From positions 310,001 through 374,000 of the forward strand of contig JANQQE010000030.1 of assembly GCA_028285105.1 (NCBI GenBank): 64,000 nucleotides of DNA, written 5' to 3'. The translations under genes were made by a program, and so were the position numbers. Under the pieces are notes generated by a model. The model did no database searches. It worked only from the letters and a program-made list of their open reading frames with translations, and was not told the DNA's origin. This document shows, piece by piece, positions 1,212-19,171 of the stretch (its first letter is position 1; the number at the start of each line of letters is the position of its first letter). Origin of the DNA: Alphaproteobacteria bacterium. GTDB lineage: Bacteria; Planctomycetota; Phycisphaerae; UBA1845.

Positions 1212-1907
1212 CTACAAAGTCAGCCAGAAACACCCGACCGCTATGGCGGCTAGTCCGCTTCCCCAGAAGAGATACTTTGAACCTTTTTCGTTGGTTGCGC
1301 CGATTCGTCCGGCTAGTCTTCCTACTGTCCAGCTGAAGATGGTCATGCCGGCAATGGAACCGATGCCGAATGCTACTACGTAGATGACGGCGGCCCATCG
1401 GGTCGGGAGTGCTAGCGCTGGCAGCACGCCGATCAGGTGCGATGTGCCGGCGAATCCGTGCAGTAAGCCGATGCCCAACGCGCGGTGTTCGTGCTTGTGT
1501 GCGATGTGTTCATGATCGCCGTGTTCGTGTTTGTGGACGCCTTCTTCGTGGACATGAATGTGGGCATGAACCACGCCGTCGTGTTCGTGGACGTGGCTGT
1601 GGATTTTCACCGACATGGCTTTGCGAATTGCCCAAAGACCGACGGCGATCAGCACAATGCCGACGATCCGCTCGCTCCAAGACGACAACCAATCCAGCGG
1701 TAACGCATCGCGCAGAATGATGGCAGCCAGTGCCAAGATCCACACGCCACCGGAATGCCCGATGCCCCAAAAAAACCCCGTGCGGACAGGCGTTTTCCTT
1801 TGATCGACCGCGAGCGGTGCGACGGCTGCAAGGTGGTCGGGACCGGCGAAAACGTGGGCAGCCCCAGCCGCCAGTCCGGTTAGGATTGTTATCAGTGTCG
1901 TCATCAT
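1212..1907 (-). CDS. UreH/NiCoT-like nickel or cobalt transport membrane protein with His-rich loop
   Basis: About 231 residues with six hydrophobic helices. The N-terminal HVFAGPDHLAAVAPLA and the GHSGG segment in helix 2 are typical of the UreH/nickel-cobalt transporter superfamily, where the first helix HxxxxDH-type motif binds the metal. Between helices 3 and 4, residues about 103-141 contain 16 histidines in 39 positions, a metal-chelating cytoplasmic or periplasmic loop. A longer open frame reaches 2111, but its first 68 residues look non-coding and overlap palindromic repeats, so I start at the ATG-ATG at 1907/1904 directly before the hydrophobic N-terminus. Nickel or cobalt uptake or efflux is a family-based guess; no urease or hydrogenase gene lies nearby. 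Confidence 0.75.
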   Translation of the reverse strand: MMTTLITILTGLAAGAAHVFAGPDHLAAVAPLAVDQRKTPVRTGFFWGIGHSGGVWILALAAIILRDALPLDWLSSWSERIVGIVLIAVGLWAIRKAMSVKIHSHVHEHDGVVHAHIHVHEEGVHKHEHGDHEHIAHKHEHRALGIGLLHGFAGTSHLIGVLPALALPTRWAAVIYVVAFGIGSIAGMTIFSWTVGRLAGRIGATNEKGSKYLFWGSGLAAIAVGCFWLTL

Positions 1908-2013
1908 CAGTTTGCCGTAACCATCAATTCTGAATCTTGCAATCTTCGTGCCAAACGCCGGACGAATAATGAATTGTATCAGGGTGGCCGCAATCGTACA
2001 GACGGGTTCTGGA

Positions 2014-2041
2014 AGGGTGGCCCATGTTCTCCGAACATGGG
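2014..2041. repeat. REP-like palindromic unit (GGGTGGCCCA head)
   Basis: GGGTGGCCCA is followed by a perfect hairpin: CCCATGTTC (2021-2029), loop TCC, GAACATGGG (2033-2041). A second unit with the same GGGTGGCCCA head lies in opposite orientation at 2186-2213. The pair therefore looks like two inverted copies of one element flanking about 144 bp. The rest of the 1908-2241 gap contains no gene I can support. Confidence 0.6.
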
Positions 2042-2185
2042 GGAGTCGATGATGAGCGATCGTGCGCAGCCCAGGCACATTTGGAAACGAACACTGTCGC
2101 CCGTTGCTCATGGCATTGTGTGAAGCGAATGCGGGCGGGGCTGGGTGGGATTGCGGGAATTCATGCCAAGACGATCATCGCCTCC

Positions 2186-5333: not shown

Positions 5334-7262
5334 ATGTGGCCCATCAAGACCTGCATCTTCTTCGCCGGTTTCATCAGTTCGTGCGGACTCTCCCTGGTGT
5401 TCCCCATCCTTGGCATTGTCACGTACATGATGATCTACCAGCTTAACCCCGACGACACCTGGTGGGGCAAACCGCTTGAAGACCTCGACATTCGACTTTC
5501 GCTGACGGCGGCTGTCTGCATGATCCTGGGCATGCTCATCAGTTCCGCGCGCGTTCCGAAGACCAAGGAGGTCGTCGGCGATTGGCTGTTGATGCTCATC
5601 ACTTTTACGCTCATCGTTCTTGCAAGCTTGTGGATCGGTACCGGAACCACCCAGTATGGTGACATGCTGGCTGACAAGATGGTCAAGATGATGATCTTTC
5701 TCTTCTGCCTTGTGCGCATGGGTGGTACAACGCGCAACTTCCGGATGGTGCTTTGGACGTTCGCGATCGGAACGCTGTACATTGGGTACGAAGCATACAA
5801 CGCAAGCGGGTCCGACTTCGCCGACGGTCGCCTGAACTTCATCGGTGGTCCGGACTTTAGAGAATCGTCGGGCCTCGCCGTGCACATGGCCGCCATGCTC
5901 CCCTTACTGGGTGTGTTGTTTCTATCGACCAAGAAGTGGCGGTGGAAAGCGCTCTTGATGATTGCGGGGGTGTTGGCCGTCAACACCATCATTCAATGTC
6001 GCACCCGGTCAGCATTTGTCGGCTTGATCGTCGGTACAATCATCGCGATCCTCATTTTACCGCGCAAGCAGAGACTTAAAGTCGGCGTTTCAATCATCGC
6101 GGTCACACTCGGCATGTTCGCACTGGCAGACGAGCATTTCTGGATCCGGATGCAAACGATTGTCGGTCACGAAACTTATGCCAAAGAGGGCGCCATTCAG
6201 GCACGACTGGAACTTTGGGGCGCTGGCTGGCAAATGTTCCTCGATCACCCGTTCGGTGTCGGCATCGGTCAATTCAAACAAGCCGTCGAGCAGTACAACA
6301 CGGGCGCAGAAATGTACGCCTTCTCGATTCCGCGACGCGTGACCCACAACAGTTATCTACTTTGCATGACGGAACTCGGTATTCAAGGCATCAGCGTCCT
6401 GTTCGCTCTGTTCAGCCTGACGCTTTGGAAGTTGTATCTGTGCTGGCGTTGGTCGCGCATTGAAGGCGACTCTTCACCGATCAAGCTATACGCCTACGGT
6501 TGCCTGCTGGCGATTGTGATCTACTCGGTTGCGGCTGCCTTTACGGATCGTTTGTATACCGAATCGTTCTGGTGGGTGATGGCCCTCCCCGTCTGTCTTG
6601 AGCGGGCAGCCGCCAGACGTTTCGCTGGAATGCTCGCATCGGATGAACAATCGATTGCAGAGGAATCCGCATCCGTCGACGCGGGTAAGGATCACGACCC
6701 GCAAGACAGCTATTCCGAAACGCGCTGGACACCGGTTCCCCGCCGAGGGCTTCACGGTTCGGTCCGCCACTTGAATCCTGCCCGCGAAATTCCCGTGCCT
6801 GAAAGCGATACCCTGGTTCGAATATCCAAACCGTCATTTACCGAAATGACCCACCGCAAGCACCGTCGCCGAAAGCGCGTCTCAGAAAATCTGTTCGCAG
6901 GCAATACCCCAAAGACGGTTACCCAACTCGGCGAATCGACCGACACCATCAGCCACGCAGTCGAGTCACTGCTCGGTTCGTCAACCGGTGACATAAGAAT
7001 GTTCGATCTGGAAGAAGGCGTTGGACAGTGGGCCGCCCGCACTGATTCCGTCACCATTAGTTACAGCGGACAACTGGCCAACGGCGTCGTATTCGACACA
7101 GCCGACCACGAACACGTTGAACTCAATTCAATTATGCCCGAACTGTCCAAAGGCATCCGAACCATGCGAGAAGCCGGCAGACGCCGCATTGTCATCCCTG
7201 CAAAAGACACCAGTGAAGAAACCATGATCTTCGATGTCACCCTGCTTGCTGTTCACGAGTGA
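5334..7262 (+). CDS. O-antigen ligase/Wzy-like membrane protein fused to an FKBP-like C-terminal domain
   Basis: 642 residues. Residues 1 to about 430 form a polytopic membrane protein with the layout of the O-antigen ligase family, in particular the exosortase A-associated putative O-glycosylation ligase: N-terminal IVTYMMIYQLNP...WG, the periplasmic-loop signature GAIQARLELWGAGWQMFLDHPFGVGIGQF, and HNSYLLCMTELGI. A basic, Ser-rich linker of about 140 residues follows. Residues 572-642 match an FKBP peptidyl-prolyl isomerase core: SVTISYSGQLANGVVFDT, then MPELSKGIRTMREAGRRRIVIPA and TMIFDVTLL. The FKBP active-site Trp position is Leu and the flap loop is missing, so catalysis is doubtful. 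ATG start with CGGGAG upstream. The paralogue at 9257 lacks the linker and FKBP part. Confidence 0.8.
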   Translation: MWPIKTCIFFAGFISSCGLSLVFPILGIVTYMMIYQLNPDDTWWGKPLEDLDIRLSLTAAVCMILGMLISSARVPKTKEVVGDWLLMLITFTLIVLASLWIGTGTTQYGDMLADKMVKMMIFLFCLVRMGGTTRNFRMVLWTFAIGTLYIGYEAYNASGSDFADGRLNFIGGPDFRESSGLAVHMAAMLPLLGVLFLSTKKWRWKALLMIAGVLAVNTIIQCRTRSAFVGLIVGTIIAILILPRKQRLKVGVSIIAVTLGMFALADEHFWIRMQTIVGHETYAKEGAIQARLELWGAGWQMFLDHPFGVGIGQFKQAVEQYNTGAEMYAFSIPRRVTHNSYLLCMTELGIQGISVLFALFSLTLWKLYLCWRWSRIEGDSSPIKLYAYGCLLAIVIYSVAAAFTDRLYTESFWWVMALPVCLERAAARRFAGMLASDEQSIAEESASVDAGKDHDPQDSYSETRWTPVPRRGLHGSVRHLNPAREIPVPESDTLVRISKPSFTEMTHRKHRRRKRVSENLFAGNTPKTVTQLGESTDTISHAVESLLGSSTGDIRMFDLEEGVGQWAARTDSVTISYSGQLANGVVFDTADHEHVELNSIMPELSKGIRTMREAGRRRIVIPAKDTSEETMIFDVTLLAVHE

Positions 7263-7466: not shown

Positions 7467-8969
7467 ATGTGCGGAAAAACAATGTACTTGAGCTTGCTTG
7501 CGGTATCGCTCGTAGCCCTACCAGCACTGGCTGACGAACTGATCCTTAAAGACGGTCAAGTGATCGAAGGTGAAGCCGATAGAGAAAAAGATATCTGGAC
7601 CATCGTTACAAAGGATGGCGAAACGAAGACCTTCAATAAATCGGAGGTTAAACGACACATATACGAGTCGCGCGTCACTCCGTTGGAGGCGGCGTCCATG
7701 ATGAAACAATTCGTCGAGCTGGTTGAACCGGTACTCTTTGCACCTGAACCTCAGCAGTACATTTGGTCTCGTGCCATCACGGAACGCAGCGGCGGATACA
7801 GCTACCGATCAAGAAACAGCGCCGTGTTTCGTCGCGATCGAGCGCGAGTCAGGACCGGACAATTCCAGTTCGATTACACACAAGGCGGAAGGGACTCAAA
7901 CGCGCGAACCGATGGTGCATCGCGAGAAACGACGGAATCGGCAGAATTGCGCGACAAGGGAATTGACGCCGTTTTTGTCGATGAATGGGCTCGATACATT
8001 GCATACTTTGAACGTCTTGATGAAGATTTGCTGTACGAAGAACTTACCTCACGTCGAAAATATTCCGGGTCACTCGCCGAATTCGCAATGTGGCCTCCGA
8101 AGGGCTACGAGCAACAATCCGAAGCGCTCAAGAAAGCGCTCGACGAAATCAAAGAGTCGATCCAGTTGGCCAAGACAACACAACAACTGGTGCAGGTCAT
8201 TCCGATCAAACAGCGCAAGCTACAGGAAGCTGTCACCAAGGCCCAATCGCGAGTTGCTCGCGCCCAATCGAAGGTAGACATCGCCGCCCCAAACCAGCGA
8301 AAGCACAGGCTGAATAGCCTCGCGAAAGCGGAAGGGGCATTGCGCAGAGCACTCGGAAATCTGCAAAACGATATCCCCAAAGCCACGCGCAATGCTGAAA
8401 GAAGAATCAACAACTTTGCCCGTCGCCGCGAAGTGGCTATCGGTTCCGTCGTTCGCGCCGCCGAGGAGCTTGGCGCAGTCTACACTGAAGAATCGGGAGG
8501 AGATTTAGACCTTCCGCCAACCGAGTCCCTTACGCTTGCGGATGCAATTGAAAAAGCGATGCAGCAAGTTGAAAGCCATCGCGCAAACAGCAAAGACCTC
8601 ACGCCATTGGGACTCGATACGCTTCGTTCGAAGACCCGCGGCAATATTCGAGAAATATTCACCGGCCGAACATTTGTCATGCGCGTCTTCGTCAAGACCA
8701 ATGGCCGATCGCCCGAAGGGGGATACCATCTGGTGGCTGAGGATCGCGCGGACGGTCAGGGCAATTCTCGCATCAAGACGACCCTGCAATTTGGCGACAG
8801 TTTTCTGAGCGATTTGGCCATGTGCAAGACGGATACCGGCGTCACGATTGAAGCCAGCGTCCAAGATGTAACGCTCGAACGTTCACTCGCAGATCTGGAA
8901 TCCTCATCGCTCGATCCGGTGTTCGTCGTTGAGGGTACGGTCGTTGCGATTACGACGGGCTGCGGCTAG
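7467..8969 (+). CDS. exported coiled-coil protein of unknown function
   Basis: 500 residues. A signal peptide ends PALA|DE (cleavage after residue 22). The mature N-terminus reads DELILKDGQVIEGEADREKDIWTI and then KTFNKSEV, a short beta domain found at the front of many planctomycete exported proteins. Residues about 215-330 are rich in Lys, Arg, Ala and Gln with heptad-like spacing (coiled coil). The C-terminal 130 residues look like a beta-rich domain with two cysteines. There is no catalytic motif that I recognise. It lies between the two O-antigen-ligase paralogues, all on the plus strand, so an envelope-linked role is possible. Upstream CGGAG at about 7453 supports the ATG used. Confidence 0.65.
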   Translation: MCGKTMYLSLLAVSLVALPALADELILKDGQVIEGEADREKDIWTIVTKDGETKTFNKSEVKRHIYESRVTPLEAASMMKQFVELVEPVLFAPEPQQYIWSRAITERSGGYSYRSRNSAVFRRDRARVRTGQFQFDYTQGGRDSNARTDGASRETTESAELRDKGIDAVFVDEWARYIAYFERLDEDLLYEELTSRRKYSGSLAEFAMWPPKGYEQQSEALKKALDEIKESIQLAKTTQQLVQVIPIKQRKLQEAVTKAQSRVARAQSKVDIAAPNQRKHRLNSLAKAEGALRRALGNLQNDIPKATRNAERRINNFARRREVAIGSVVRAAEELGAVYTEESGGDLDLPPTESLTLADAIEKAMQQVESHRANSKDLTPLGLDTLRSKTRGNIREIFTGRTFVMRVFVKTNGRSPEGGYHLVAEDRADGQGNSRIKTTLQFGDSFLSDLAMCKTDTGVTIEASVQDVTLERSLADLESSSLDPVFVVEGTVVAITTGCG

Positions 8970-9256: not shown

Positions 9257-10684
9257 ATGTTGCTCGGACAAGTCACCACATTTCTTTGGCCGCTGAAGAC
9301 GTGCCTGTTTTTTGTGGCGTTCGTGTGCGCGTGCGGGTTGTCGCTGGTTTTTCCGATCGTCGGCATCGTCAATTACATGCTGGTCTATCAGCTGCACCCC
9401 GGAAAAATGTGGTGGGGACAACCGCTCGACGATCTGGGCATTCGTTATTCGATGACGGCTGCGATGTGTCTGGTCCTTGGCATGCTTCTCAGCGCCGGGC
9501 GCGTTCCGAAGTCAAGAGTGCTGCTCGGTTCGTGGTTGACGCTCGTGCTGTTCTTTACCGGCATTGTTCTCTGGAGCTTTGCACTCAACCCAGGCAGTAC
9601 CGATTACGGCGCAATACTCGCCGACAAGATGGTCAAGATGGCCATCTTTCTGATCTGCCTCGTACGCATGGGCTCGATCCGTGGCAACTTCAAAATACTG
9701 CTTTGGACCTTTGTCGCCGGAACGATCGTCATCGGTTACGACGCATTCGGCGCACCGCAAGATGACTTTGCTGACGGTCGGCTAAATTTCGTTGGCGGAC
9801 CGGACTTCCGCGAGTCTTCCGGATTGGCAGTACACATGGCCGCCATGCTCCCACTCATCGGGGTGGTGTTCATGGTCACCAAGGCGAAACACTGGCGGGC
9901 CATCGCTGGTATCAGCGGCATTTTGGCCGTCAATACCGTGGTATTGTGTCGCACACGATCCGCATTTGTGGGACTTCTGGCTGGCGTAGCGATCGCGCTG
10001 TTGATGGTGCCGCGCGGTTGGCGATTGAAAATTTATTCGTCGATTATCGTCGGCTGCATTGGGGCGATGTCGCTGGCGGATCAGCACTTCTGGGATCGCA
10101 TGACAACAATTCTGCGGCCAGCCGACTACGCCTCCGACGGCGCAATCCAGTCTCGAATCGAATTGTGGACCGTTGCACACGAAATGTTCTTGGATCATCC
10201 ATTCGGTGTCGGCGTGGGTCGCTTCAAAGACTACGCGCACTTATACAACACGGGTGATTACCGTTACGCATTCGACGAACCGGGCCGCGTCGCTCACAAC
10301 AGCTACCTGCTATGCATCACCGAGTTGGGCATTCATGGCTTTGCGGTGTTTGTGCTGATTATCTGCGTCGTCCTTCATCGAATTCGCCGATGTTTCAAAC
10401 TTGCGAAGGACTCCGACGATCCAGCCAGTTCGCGATTGATGGCGTACGGATGCTTTTTGTCGGTGGTGGTCTATCTGGCGTCGGCTGCGTTTACCGACCG
10501 ATTGTACACCGAGTCGTTCTGGTGGGTTTTGGCACTGCCAATCTGCCTCGATCGCGCGTTGGCGTTTGAAGTCGCTCGGCAGGAAGAAACCGATTGGGAA
10601 TTGAATCCAGCGTGGAGCCCGTTGTATGACGATGAGCCGCAATACATCCCAGCCGCAAATTCTCCACGTTGTGCATTCACTTGA
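9257..10684 (+). CDS. O-antigen ligase/Wzy-like membrane protein (no FKBP domain)
   Basis: 475 residues and about ten to twelve membrane helices. It is a clear paralogue of the 5334-7262 product: both contain FADGRLNF(I/V)GGPDFRESSGLAVHMAAMLPL-type blocks, GAIQSRIELWTVAHEMFLDHPFGVGVGRF and HNSYLLCITELGIHG. The loop with the conserved Arg and His-Asn residues is typical of WaaL/Wzy and exosortase A-associated ligases, which join or polymerise lipid-linked glycans on the outer face of the membrane. The C-terminus stops shortly after the last helix. The 3' end overlaps the next glycosyltransferase by 59 bp, indicating an operon. The 287 bp upstream of the start contain the palindrome ACGCCAATTGGCGT (8976-8989) and nothing else recognisable. 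Confidence 0.8.
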   Translation: MLLGQVTTFLWPLKTCLFFVAFVCACGLSLVFPIVGIVNYMLVYQLHPGKMWWGQPLDDLGIRYSMTAAMCLVLGMLLSAGRVPKSRVLLGSWLTLVLFFTGIVLWSFALNPGSTDYGAILADKMVKMAIFLICLVRMGSIRGNFKILLWTFVAGTIVIGYDAFGAPQDDFADGRLNFVGGPDFRESSGLAVHMAAMLPLIGVVFMVTKAKHWRAIAGISGILAVNTVVLCRTRSAFVGLLAGVAIALLMVPRGWRLKIYSSIIVGCIGAMSLADQHFWDRMTTILRPADYASDGAIQSRIELWTVAHEMFLDHPFGVGVGRFKDYAHLYNTGDYRYAFDEPGRVAHNSYLLCITELGIHGFAVFVLIICVVLHRIRRCFKLAKDSDDPASSRLMAYGCFLSVVVYLASAAFTDRLYTESFWWVLALPICLDRALAFEVARQEETDWELNPAWSPLYDDEPQYIPAANSPRCAFT

Positions 10685-11828
10685 ACCAGGCGGTACGGAG
10701 CGAATGCTTTGTCGCTTGGTGGAAACGCTTAAGCACGGCAACGCCCATCACCACATTTGCAGCCTCCGAGATCCGCGACCGTTTGAAGGCACACTGGGCG
10801 ACGGCTTGAACGTATTCTCGCTTTCCGCACGCAATCGCGAACGCTTCCTTTATCGCCGACTCGCCGCCGCAATTCGTGAACGCAACATCGATATTGTCCA
10901 TGCCCGCAACTGGGGTACATGGACGGATGCTGCATTGGCATGTCGTTCAATTCGAAGCGTCCAACTCGCCGTCGGATTCCACGGTTTGCAAAATGGCAGG
11001 GCTTTCACGGCGATTCAGCGCGTTCGAGCCAAATTGCTTGGGCTGACGACGCTGCCCGCGACGGCTGTGTCTTCGGCAGCGCGTGATGTGTTGGTGGATT
11101 CGCTTGGCTTCTGTCGCTCGAACGTCAAAGTAATCCCCAACGGAGTGGACACTGACCGATTCATTGTCAAAATCGACCAATCAAGGCATTCCGCGCGCAG
11201 CAAACTCGACATCTCCACCGGGGAATTCGTCGTCGGCTCCGTCGCCAACTTCTTTGAACGTGTTAAAGGGCTCGACATCTTGATCGATGCATTCAACCAA
11301 CTCGTTGCCCACCGTCCCGAGGCACGATTGATACTAGTCGGATATGGTCCGCTGGAAGGAGAATTACGGTCGCAAATCAATCGGCTCGATCTCGATGATC
11401 GCGTGTCGTTCGCCGGCCGGGTCGATAGCGTCGAAAGCGTGTTGCCTGCCTTTGACGTCTTCGTCTGTCCAAGTCGATCAGAAGGGATGAGTAACGCCGT
11501 CCTGGAGGCGATGGCCACAGGCTTGCCTTGCGTGGTGACCGACGTGTCCGATCATCGCAGCATGTTTGCGCCAATCGATGCCGATTTGGTTGTCCCACCC
11601 GACAATGCAGAACAGTTGGCGGAAGCAATGCATCGACTCATCGACAAAGAAAAAACGCGTATCGAAGTCGGAAAAGCAAGTCGCAAGTTGGTCGAAAAAC
11701 GCTTTACTTTCAACGCTTGCGCAAATGCATACCGAGACACTTACGCCAAACTTTGCCGCGTTGGCTTCAATCGATCTCAAGGATGGGCTGACGGTTCTTC
11801 GATGACTGAGTTCGCTGGAGCGCGTTAG
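10626..11828 (+). CDS. GT4-family glycosyltransferase, PEP-CTERM/EpsH-type
   Basis: 400 residues with a GT-B fold. The N-terminal acceptor half opens LHVVHSLEPGGTERML, the signature glycine loop of the sugar transferases found in exosortase-type EPS loci. The C-terminal donor half contains VGSVANFFERVKGLD, VGYGPLEGELR and FVCPSRSEGMSNAVLEAMATGLPCV, with the E-x7-E motif that contacts the nucleotide-sugar. It probably adds a hexose to the growing repeat unit on the cytoplasmic side. The ATG at 10626 has GGAG eight bases upstream and overlaps the ligase gene; ATG at 10632 is an alternative. Its 3' end overlaps the convergent methyltransferase gene by 62 bp. Confidence 0.85.
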   Translation: MTMSRNTSQPQILHVVHSLEPGGTERMLCRLVETLKHGNAHHHICSLRDPRPFEGTLGDGLNVFSLSARNRERFLYRRLAAAIRERNIDIVHARNWGTWTDAALACRSIRSVQLAVGFHGLQNGRAFTAIQRVRAKLLGLTTLPATAVSSAARDVLVDSLGFCRSNVKVIPNGVDTDRFIVKIDQSRHSARSKLDISTGEFVVGSVANFFERVKGLDILIDAFNQLVAHRPEARLILVGYGPLEGELRSQINRLDLDDRVSFAGRVDSVESVLPAFDVFVCPSRSEGMSNAVLEAMATGLPCVVTDVSDHRSMFAPIDADLVVPPDNAEQLAEAMHRLIDKEKTRIEVGKASRKLVEKRFTFNACANAYRDTYAKLCRVGFNRSQGWADGSSMTEFAGAR

Positions 11829-15611: not shown

Positions 15612-15899
15612 ACGCTCCTTCCGTTCGAATCCTGCCCTCGCATTTGGATCGATACGCTCAACTGATGATCGGTCCCTCGCGGGCACGGCGAATTCGCTTT
15701 CCATCGCATGGAACGGTACAGGTCCTATCGGTCGAATCCGATAAACACATGGATAGAGTGCGCTGCGTCCACACGTTTTCGGTCGCCAACGCAATTCGTC
15801 GATCCATCTATCGGATTCGACGTCGTCTCACGGTTACGAATGCAACGCATGCCCGCGCTCGATCGAAGAACGCGGCTGCTCTTGCGAAATGGAGTCACC

Positions 15900-17831
15900 A
15901 TGAAGCCGGAACAAGGAAGCCAAATCGATCCGCGTACGGAGCGATCGTCGGAAGACTCGTCGTTCGTATTACTGCGGAACAACATCTTTGAAGTGTTTCG
16001 AATTCTCATCCTTCGAAGGTGGGCGTTCTTTGTTCCGTTTTGCCTCGTCGTTTGCCTGGCGACGATCATCAGCCAATACATTCCGCGCATCTACAAATCG
16101 ACAACCGTGATCGAACGGCGCGACCATCCGGTACTGATCAACCTGCGACAAACCGTCGCGACCGGCGAATTCGCACGGTTCTTCCGCCCGACTCTGTCGC
16201 GTGACGTGAAATCGATCGACACCGTATCGGAAGCGGTCGCACAGGCTGGATTGATTCCAAATCTTCCGCGCAATGCAGACGGTACGCCCACCGAAGAGGG
16301 CTGGGATCTTTGCCGTCGCAGGGCGGCTGAACTGACCCACGGCGTCAACGTCCGACTCATTCAGCGGACCGAACACCTCGACCAGATTCAGATCACATTC
16401 GAGGGTCAAAGTCCATCGATGCCTCAGCGATTTGTGCGGGCGATCAAGGATGCCTACGTCCGCCGCATGCGCGCTCAACTTGTCACCTTACTGGTTGATG
16501 CGAAGACCTATTTTGAAAACACGGCACGGGAACAGCGTCAGCAAATCTCGGACCTCGAGTCTGAAACGCTCGCATTTCAAGCCGAATTCATCGGGATCGA
16601 CCCGACCAACCCGGGCGCTCTCAAGTTAAAGCTCACGTCTCTCGAGAGTGAGCGCGCGGAACTCGAACGCGATCGCAACATGCTAACGCTTGAAACCGAG
16701 GCACGTCGCCGACGCATCGAGCAGCACAAGTTGCGTTCGCAACAATCGCTCGCCATGCAAATCGGATCGGCATTTCCAATCAAGCGTAATCTGAGCCCAG
16801 AAGCCCAGACCATTGAAGGCGAAATACTGACCATGCAGCGCGAAATTCACGATCTGAAAACCACACGGCGCATGACCGACCGCCACCCAGACATCATCGA
16901 ATTAAAAAAACGTATAGACCGCGCGAAGGGTCAACTCGAGTCGCAATACGCTGCATCGACAACTGGCGGCGCGGCGTCACTCGCGACCGAACACGTTGCG
17001 GCTGGCGGTAGCGCTGCCATTTGGGACATGGAGTTGGCCGACCTGCAACTCGACCTTCAAGATCGCGAGAATCGATTGGCTGCGATGGATCAACGGCTGC
17101 GCGTCATCGAGTCAGACATCACCAAGCACAAGCGTCTCGAAGACAACATCTTCAGGTATCGCAAAGATTTCCAGGTGAAACAGGACTTGCTCGATCAGGC
17201 TCGGGCCGAACACACCATGAACTCGCGACGCGTTGTAGAAATCGCCGGAATTCTAAACGCCGACGAATCCGAACGCGGCGTGTCCTTTACCGAACTGACG
17301 CCACCAACCGCATGCATCAAACCGATCAGCCCCCGAAGCACGACTGTTTTGGCACTTTCGATCCTTGCAGGATTGGGTGCGGGCGCCGTCGGAGTACTGC
17401 GCAAGGAACTGTTTGACCAAACGTATCACACCACAAAACAGGTCACGCGAAGTCTCGGGCTTGCGGTGCTTGAATCGGTGGAGGAATTCATCACGTCGGT
17501 CGAACGCGCCAGAATGTTTCGTCGCCGCGTTATATACGCACCCGCCGTCGTCTTCGTGTTGCTCACAGCCGTCGGTATCTCCTGCGCGGCTGCGTTCTTG
17601 AGCATTGAAAAACCAAAGGCGTACGATCGCTACATGACCAAACCGCGTGCGCTTTGGCAATCGGTATGGAACGACAAGTCGATTTCCGACTCGACGAAGG
17701 TTTCCGATTCTCAAAAGCCCGATAAGTCCGAAGTCGAAAAAGTGCCTGCGAAAAATCAAACGCCACGAATACGTCAAAAACCGGTTAAGAAAAGCGACAC
17801 GGCATTGGCGTCGATCGAAGCCGGTCAATAA
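15900..17831 (+). CDS. Wzz/GumC-like polysaccharide chain-length determinant
   Basis: 643 residues. A first membrane helix at about residues 40-62 (WAFFVPFCLVVCLATIIS) is followed by a large periplasmic part with long coiled coils (about 190-480), including TDRHPDIIELKKRI, the conserved segment of GumC/Wzz proteins. A second and third hydrophobic stretch follow (STTVLALSILAGLGAGAVGVL and APAVVFVLLTAVGISC). The tail is Lys/Ser-rich with no Walker motifs, so the tyrosine-kinase domain found in some family members is absent. It probably controls polymer length or export. The start is ATG 15900 with GGAG directly upstream; the open frame back to 15708 lacks protein-like character. The next glycosyltransferase begins 5 bp after its stop. 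Confidence 0.8.
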   Translation: MKPEQGSQIDPRTERSSEDSSFVLLRNNIFEVFRILILRRWAFFVPFCLVVCLATIISQYIPRIYKSTTVIERRDHPVLINLRQTVATGEFARFFRPTLSRDVKSIDTVSEAVAQAGLIPNLPRNADGTPTEEGWDLCRRRAAELTHGVNVRLIQRTEHLDQIQITFEGQSPSMPQRFVRAIKDAYVRRMRAQLVTLLVDAKTYFENTAREQRQQISDLESETLAFQAEFIGIDPTNPGALKLKLTSLESERAELERDRNMLTLETEARRRRIEQHKLRSQQSLAMQIGSAFPIKRNLSPEAQTIEGEILTMQREIHDLKTTRRMTDRHPDIIELKKRIDRAKGQLESQYAASTTGGAASLATEHVAAGGSAAIWDMELADLQLDLQDRENRLAAMDQRLRVIESDITKHKRLEDNIFRYRKDFQVKQDLLDQARAEHTMNSRRVVEIAGILNADESERGVSFTELTPPTACIKPISPRSTTVLALSILAGLGAGAVGVLRKELFDQTYHTTKQVTRSLGLAVLESVEEFITSVERARMFRRRVIYAPAVVFVLLTAVGISCAAAFLSIEKPKAYDRYMTKPRALWQSVWNDKSISDSTKVSDSQKPDKSEVEKVPAKNQTPRIRQKPVKKSDTALASIEAGQ

Positions 17832-17836
17832 CAAAC

Positions 17837-19171
17837 ATGCATTCTGCACCGCGACGCGTCCTAATGATCGCTGCCGCCTTTCCGCCTTCGGGTGGATCGG
17901 GCGTCCAGCGCACGCTCAAGTTCTCCAAATACCTGCCACAATTCGGATGGCTGCCCATCGTCTGGACGGTGGACCACATTGACGCCCTGCCCATCGACGA
18001 ATCGCTTTGCGACGAAATCCCCGAATGCGCAGAAGTTCATCGACGCCCACACCGCTTCGGCAAAGGGGCGGCTGGCAAACTTACAGATGCATTGCAACAT
18101 GCGGGACCGTTGGGATCGCGGCTGGCTGACGCTGCGAAATGGCGAATTGAAAAATGGAACCGGAAGCGCGCCTGGCCCGACGAGTTCGCAAAATGGGTCG
18201 AGGATAGCGTCGCTCCATTACTGAAGCTAATTCGCGACCGCAATGTCGATGCGTTCTACTCCACGTACAGCCCATCTGCCAACCATCTTTTGGCGTTGAA
18301 GCTCAAGCAAGCCACCGGATTGCCCTGGATCGCCGACTTTCGCGACCTGTGGACCGATGATCTTCGCTATCGCGAAACCGATGTGAGACGTCACAAAGCG
18401 AACGTAGAACTTGAACAGACGGTTCTCGAAACCGCTGATGCCGTAGTTGGAGTATCTCCGTCACAAACCGAAGTGCTTGTCGGCCACGTTCCGGAGCAAC
18501 GGGAGAAGTTCGTCACCATCACCAATGGGTACGATCCCGCCGACTTTGAAAACGTCACCGGATACAAGCGAGTTCCCAACCGGCCTTTCACGCTGTCATT
18601 CGTAGGTCGCTTCGACCGACAGCGTGCAGACGACGATCTGTTCATTGCGCTGCAAGAATTCGTAAAGAGACTCGGCGAAAATCGCGACGAATTCGTCTTT
18701 CGCATCGTCGGGGAGTTTGACGCATCGACAGCGCGAAAGTTAAGCGAAGCCAAAATCCCCTTCGAGACAACAGGATACGTATCGCACGCGGAAGCCATTC
18801 AAGAAATGTACTCAGCCGACGCCCTACTCCTGACGACCGACCGAGGCGGCCCCAACGCTTCGACGGTCATCTGCGGAAAAATATTCGAATACCTCGCAAG
18901 CCAGCGGCCAATTCTCACGGTAGGCCCCGAGGGATGGGAAGGCCAACGCATCATCGAATCATTCAACGCAGGCATAACCACAACGTGGAACCCTCGGGAC
19001 ATTACTGATGCACTTTGCAATTTGCGCAAGTCCTGGTCGAGTCAAACTGAGATTGCAAGTGCAGATCCGACCGACCTCAAATCGATCAGCCGAATCTCGC
19101 TAACAAAGCAACTCTGCAAAACAATTGCAAAAGTTTCCGTTACCACATCTACACCAACAATCGCGACGTAA
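17837..19171 (+). CDS. GT4-like glycosyltransferase
   Basis: 444 residues with a GT-B arrangement. The N-terminal half opens FPPSGGSGVQRTLKFSKYLPQFGW, typical of GT4-like enzymes that bind the acceptor there, and contains WIADFRDLWTDD. The C-terminal half has TLSFVGRFDRQR, FETTGYVSHAEAIQEMYSADALLL and VICGKIFEYLASQRPIL, the nucleotide-sugar side with the Glu of KIFEYL. It follows the chain-length gene immediately, so the two are co-transcribed. There is no good Shine-Dalgarno sequence, consistent with coupling to the upstream stop. Sugar specificity cannot be deduced. Confidence 0.8.
   Translation: MHSAPRRVLMIAAAFPPSGGSGVQRTLKFSKYLPQFGWLPIVWTVDHIDALPIDESLCDEIPECAEVHRRPHRFGKGAAGKLTDALQHAGPLGSRLADAAKWRIEKWNRKRAWPDEFAKWVEDSVAPLLKLIRDRNVDAFYSTYSPSANHLLALKLKQATGLPWIADFRDLWTDDLRYRETDVRRHKANVELEQTVLETADAVVGVSPSQTEVLVGHVPEQREKFVTITNGYDPADFENVTGYKRVPNRPFTLSFVGRFDRQRADDDLFIALQEFVKRLGENRDEFVFRIVGEFDASTARKLSEAKIPFETTGYVSHAEAIQEMYSADALLLTTDRGGPNASTVICGKIFEYLASQRPILTVGPEGWEGQRIIESFNAGITTTWNPRDITDALCNLRKSWSSQTEIASADPTDLKSISRISLTKQLCKTIAKVSVTTSTPTIAT

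Follow-up and report, generated by a model that had tools for sequence, protein, structure and literature searches.

For enzymes of the Wzy type, the known control acts mainly through separate partners (e.g., Wzz), and the C-terminus of WaaL is cytosolic. An extra C-terminal domain has been described in the O-oligosaccharyltransferase (O-OTase) PglS, where it is modelled as periplasmic (PMC12800693). Among FKBP proteins, the cytoplasmic SlyD of Helicobacter pylori binds to one subunit of a permease, and its effect on transport comes mostly from its chaperone domain (PMC7840056). SlyD is most sensitive at its Tyr82 equivalent, with 21% of activity remaining (PMC5034536). A sequence-only reading of the DNA studied here proposed an O-antigen-ligase-like protein fused to an FKBP domain and knew of no described fusion of this kind; the literature we searched likewise contained no paper in which FKBP is relevantly linked to an O-antigen ligase, to Wzy_C or to exosortase.

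Domains and distribution of the fusion

The window (the whole 64,000-nucleotide stretch analysed) carries the fusion ORF at positions 5334-7262 of the forward strand, which runs from ATG to TGA as one unbroken frame of 642 aa. Three parts follow each other on this strand. Residues 1-431 (5334..6626) form a polytopic glycan ligase or polymerase domain of the WaaL/Wzy_C type, delimited by Pfam, profile and AlphaFold2 (AF2) results. Residues 432-548 (6627..6977) form a linker with low pLDDT, few invariant columns and a dN/dS of ~0.2-0.65, and residues 549-642 (6978..7259) form a flapless FKBP-fold domain, hereafter the tail, recognised by Pfam FKBP_C, AF2, conservation and dN/dS. Both domains of the proposed fusion were borne out by Pfam and by their AF2 folds. 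Wzy_C (PF04932) matched at residues 211-356 (62.1 bits, E 6.5e-17; curated cut-off 31.7 bits) and FKBP_C (PF00254) at residues 567-624 (26.3 bits, E 9.8e-6; curated cut-off 21.1 bits), the latter rising to 31.4 bits (E 2.4e-7) when the tail was searched by itself. The tail also matched FKBP families in NCBIfam, and its top sequence match among solved structures was FkpA (E 1.3e-4). The FKBP part had been placed at residues 572-642; the domain stands, and its start lies further upstream, near residue 549. A chance FKBP match was ruled out by the curated cut-off, the fold match and conservation.

In the AF2 full-length model, the ligase part aligned with WaaL (7tpg_B) over residues 18-429 (Z 25.2, 376 residues), and a profile built from the ligases matched WaaL 7tpg with an E-value of 3.8e-14. 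The HN and TR motifs fell on those of WaaL in the HMM alignment, so the protein has both the WaaL fold and its catalytic His and Arg motifs; His338 in the large loop aligned with the WaaL His. The best NCBIfam match, covering nearly the whole ligase part, was TIGR03097 PEP_O_lig_1 (E 3.4e-27), although its 95.4 bits remain below the curated cut-off of 188.1 for membership. Since sequence alone does not tell ligase, polymerase and O-OTase apart, we refer to the putative enzyme as a WaaL/Wzy_C-type ligase or polymerase. As for the tail, AlphaFold2 modelling of this part from five orthologues gave a confident FKBP core (pLDDT 80-91 per ten-residue block, model residues 41-109). The tail model matched FKBP12 (4n19) with Z 10.4 over 79 residues and an rmsd of 2.2, as expected of an FKBP fold, and residues ~530-642 of the full-length model matched FkpA/Mip with Z 13-14 (FkpA 1q6u, Z 13.7).

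The linker is ~100-118 residues long, and not the basic stretch of about 140 residues first described: an acidic part (residues 431-470, net -6 to -12) precedes the basic one (residues 471-535, net +4 to +8). Residues 449-551 have pLDDT <50 in the full-length model, and the linker is probably disordered, with 13% invariant columns across the five species. Two stretches are conserved amid this loose sequence (window 6870-6977), namely KRVxExxxAGx (near 514-524) and DTIxxxVxxLLG (537-548); these are possible docking motifs.

The in-frame fusion was present in all five species examined of the genus, and the genomes carrying it include the Phycisphaerae or Planctomycetota MAGs OFTM112, 8_bin.52, UBA1845 and M_MetaBat.71. 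Since four further species also have the fusion in frame, a frameshift or a separate tail gene was ruled out. None of the 46 other family genomes examined carried the tail, and ligase matches there stop near residue 430-480. A profile of the tail scored 174-187 bits in the fusions; the rest of the family reached no more than 53 bits, and no other match exceeded ~45 bits in the class and phylum samples. Among the matches listed for the class genomes, compared by eye, Wzy_C and FKBP did not coincide, although independent fusions may exist in distant bacteria, and plasmid records gave only 35% matches to the tail in three Acinetobacter records. The combination of the two parts, each known by itself, appears to be new and was seen in one genus only. 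Separately, an N run flanked by repeated LADKMVK (locus L011, 690-800, on the same contig as locus L039) appears to be an artefact of a scaffold gap in UBA1845 and not biology.

Active site and membrane side of the tail

Alignment with FkpA and family FKBPs showed that the tail keeps the FKBP12 positions Tyr26, Phe36, Asp37 and Phe99, with Leu at the Phe36 position in one species, while the Trp59 equivalent is Leu604 and the flap bearing Tyr82 is missing (a deletion of ~10-12 residues relative to family FKBPs). This agrees with the residues that the sequence-only reading had listed as kept and lost. The set that marks a catalytic FKBP prolyl isomerase (Trp59 floor, 80s flap with Tyr82) is therefore absent from the alignment, in all five species. 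Because these positions are lost, and SlyD is most sensitive at its own counterpart of Tyr82, prolyl isomerase catalysis by the tail is probably weak or lost. An active isomerase or foldase that aids folding of the ligase or of cytosolic partners would fit the FKBP fold, the retained Tyr26, Phe36-Asp37 and Phe99 positions and the purifying selection on the domain (see below), but given the missing flap, Tyr82 and Trp59 equivalents we regard it as unlikely.

The closest FKBP relatives found were proteins of the same family with lipoprotein-like N-termini and a likewise short 40s loop. On the basis of this proximity and the common loop, the tail may derive from a pool of lipoprotein-like family FKBPs. 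One genome also encodes a 699-aa exported-looking frame with five tandem FKBP domains (G000:C1:38924-40762, loci L001-L005), the second of which is also without most of the flap.

The side of the membrane was evaluated from net loop charges averaged over 17 homologues. These alternate (+2.9 / -0.1 / +2.1 / -1.1 / +2.1) up to the active-site Arg loop and continue after it as +2.9 / -1.9 (large loop) / +1.5 / 0.0, in agreement with the positive-inside rule. Three membrane helices follow the large loop containing His338. Taken with the WaaL alignment, the loop charges and the three helices behind the periplasmic catalytic-His loop indicate that residue 430 onward, and hence the tail, is probably in the cytosol. 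The segment right behind the last helix is acidic as a homologue average, which counts against this. A tail in the cytosol would be unlikely to act on glycoprotein acceptors that are exported, so this part of the earlier proposal was not supported. That acceptor idea would have the tail on the outer side of the membrane, where it helps exported acceptors to fold or presents them to be glycosylated. The lipoprotein-signal-like N-termini of its nearest FKBP relatives and the periplasmic C-terminal domain modelled in PglS (PMC12800693) would fit such a location, and both count against a cytosolic docking role; but the loop charges, the helix count behind the catalytic loop and the WaaL alignment over residues 18-429 all point inside, and we consider an outside tail improbable.

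Duplication, selection and gene neighbourhood

A paralogous ligase is encoded 3' of the fusion on the same strand (9257..10684), and Pfam found Wzy_C alone in it, confirming that this copy has no FKBP tail. In the tree, the fusion ligases are monophyletic and so are the tailless paralogues (100/99 each), and the two clades are sisters (support 100/100); two mis-framed rows with absurd branches (FAM_L018, FAM_L029) fall outside both clades. The duplication is therefore older than the radiation of the genus, and the tail was either gained in one copy or lost from the other. Gain is favoured, because the outgroups are without the tail. Gene order around the ligase copies is conserved. Three of the five species have a gene for an exported-looking protein of 500 aa (window 7467-8969) between the copies, and the remaining two do not; the protein has a weak LA_0442/LA_0875 N-terminal match below the cut-off.

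Between species, NG86 dN/dS came to ~0.04-0.09 in the ligase part, against 0.09-0.25 in the FKBP domain and ~0.2-0.65 in the linker, values to be read in light of synonymous sites that are often near saturation. Together with 54% invariant columns in the FKBP domain (five species), this shows that the tail is under purifying selection and the linker is loose. The tail might instead be a captured domain that the enzyme could do without and that has no role of its own. Its restriction to one genus, its missing catalytic positions and a dN/dS above that of the ligase part would suit such a passenger, but we consider this unlikely given the invariant columns, a dN/dS this low despite highly diverged synonymous sites, and a tail never lost in five species.

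The polysaccharide cluster around the ligase copies is similar to XrtA/PEP-CTERM clusters. A GT4 glycosyltransferase (10626..11828, +) matches the PEP-CTERM/XrtA glycosyltransferase family TIGR03088 (180 bits) and a polysaccharide chain-length determinant (15708..17831, +) matches the XrtA chain length determinant family TIGR03007 (100 bits); these and the other matches to XrtA-type families in the cluster are all below cut-off. Further GT4 glycosyltransferases, a polysaccharide deacetylase and a GNAT/FemAB-like protein are also encoded, and one more glycosyltransferase of the cluster lies at 17837-19171. The start of the glycosyltransferase overlaps the end of the paralogue by ~59 bases (window 10626-10684), alike in loci L037, L038, L039 and L040, which suggests translational coupling. 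Upstream, a membrane protein whose long loop is rich in His (window 1212-2111), possibly a metal permease, has a similar gene near the ligase in other species.

Proposed role and comparison with known systems

We propose that, within a polysaccharide cluster of XrtA-like make-up, a WaaL/Wzy_C-type glycan ligase or polymerase was duplicated before the genus diversified, and that one copy bears a C-terminal FKBP domain on what would be a flexible linker. With its flap and key catalytic residues gone, the tail would act on the cytosolic face as a module for docking or holding, tethered to the enzyme and binding either a partner protein or some stretch of the enzyme. Candidate partners include a glycosyltransferase and the ligase itself, and binding may tune assembly or activity instead of isomerising prolines in exported acceptors. 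We give this explanation as a whole, in which a WaaL-type enzyme carries a tethered FKBP that is cytosolic and non-catalytic and serves as a docking or chaperone module, a probability of roughly 0.55. The earlier suggestion of a binding module or chaperone, and not an enzyme, agrees with the lost catalytic positions; the binding itself is something we infer. More tentatively, a covalently built-in, catalytically silent FKBP could give a WaaL/Wzy-type enzyme a cytosolic domain for control or docking, which would be an undescribed way of regulating how lipid-linked glycans are ligated or polymerised. The native fusion points to a cytosolic side of Wzy-type control and provides a testable module, and comparison with the tailless sister copy nearby offers a natural way to see what the tail contributes.

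Compared with described systems, the ligase part is like WaaL (PDB 7tpg/7tpj) and Pfam Wzy_C in its fold, catalytic-His region and TR motif, but WaaL stops where the linker of the fusion protein starts and is without an FKBP tail. TIGR03097, the exosortase-A-associated putative O-glycosylation ligase, is similar as the best NCBIfam match and in its XrtA-like neighbours; however, the fusion ligase is not a member under the curated rule, and the sole exosortase match of the genome is on another contig. PglS is likewise a Wzy_C family enzyme with an extra C-terminal domain, but that domain is modelled at the periplasmic face and is not described as FKBP (PMC12800693). The tail has the FKBP fold of FkpA/Mip-type proteins (PDB 1q6u, 8bjc), and differs from them in its short 40s loop, in the absence of the flap, Tyr82 and Trp59, and in being joined to a membrane enzyme. 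The SlyD/NiuBDE nickel transporter system of H. pylori offers a parallel, with an FKBP in the cytoplasm that binds a permease subunit and affects its activity (PMC7840056), although SlyD is a separate protein with a chaperone domain inserted in its flap, whereas the tail has no insert and is covalently tethered to its enzyme.
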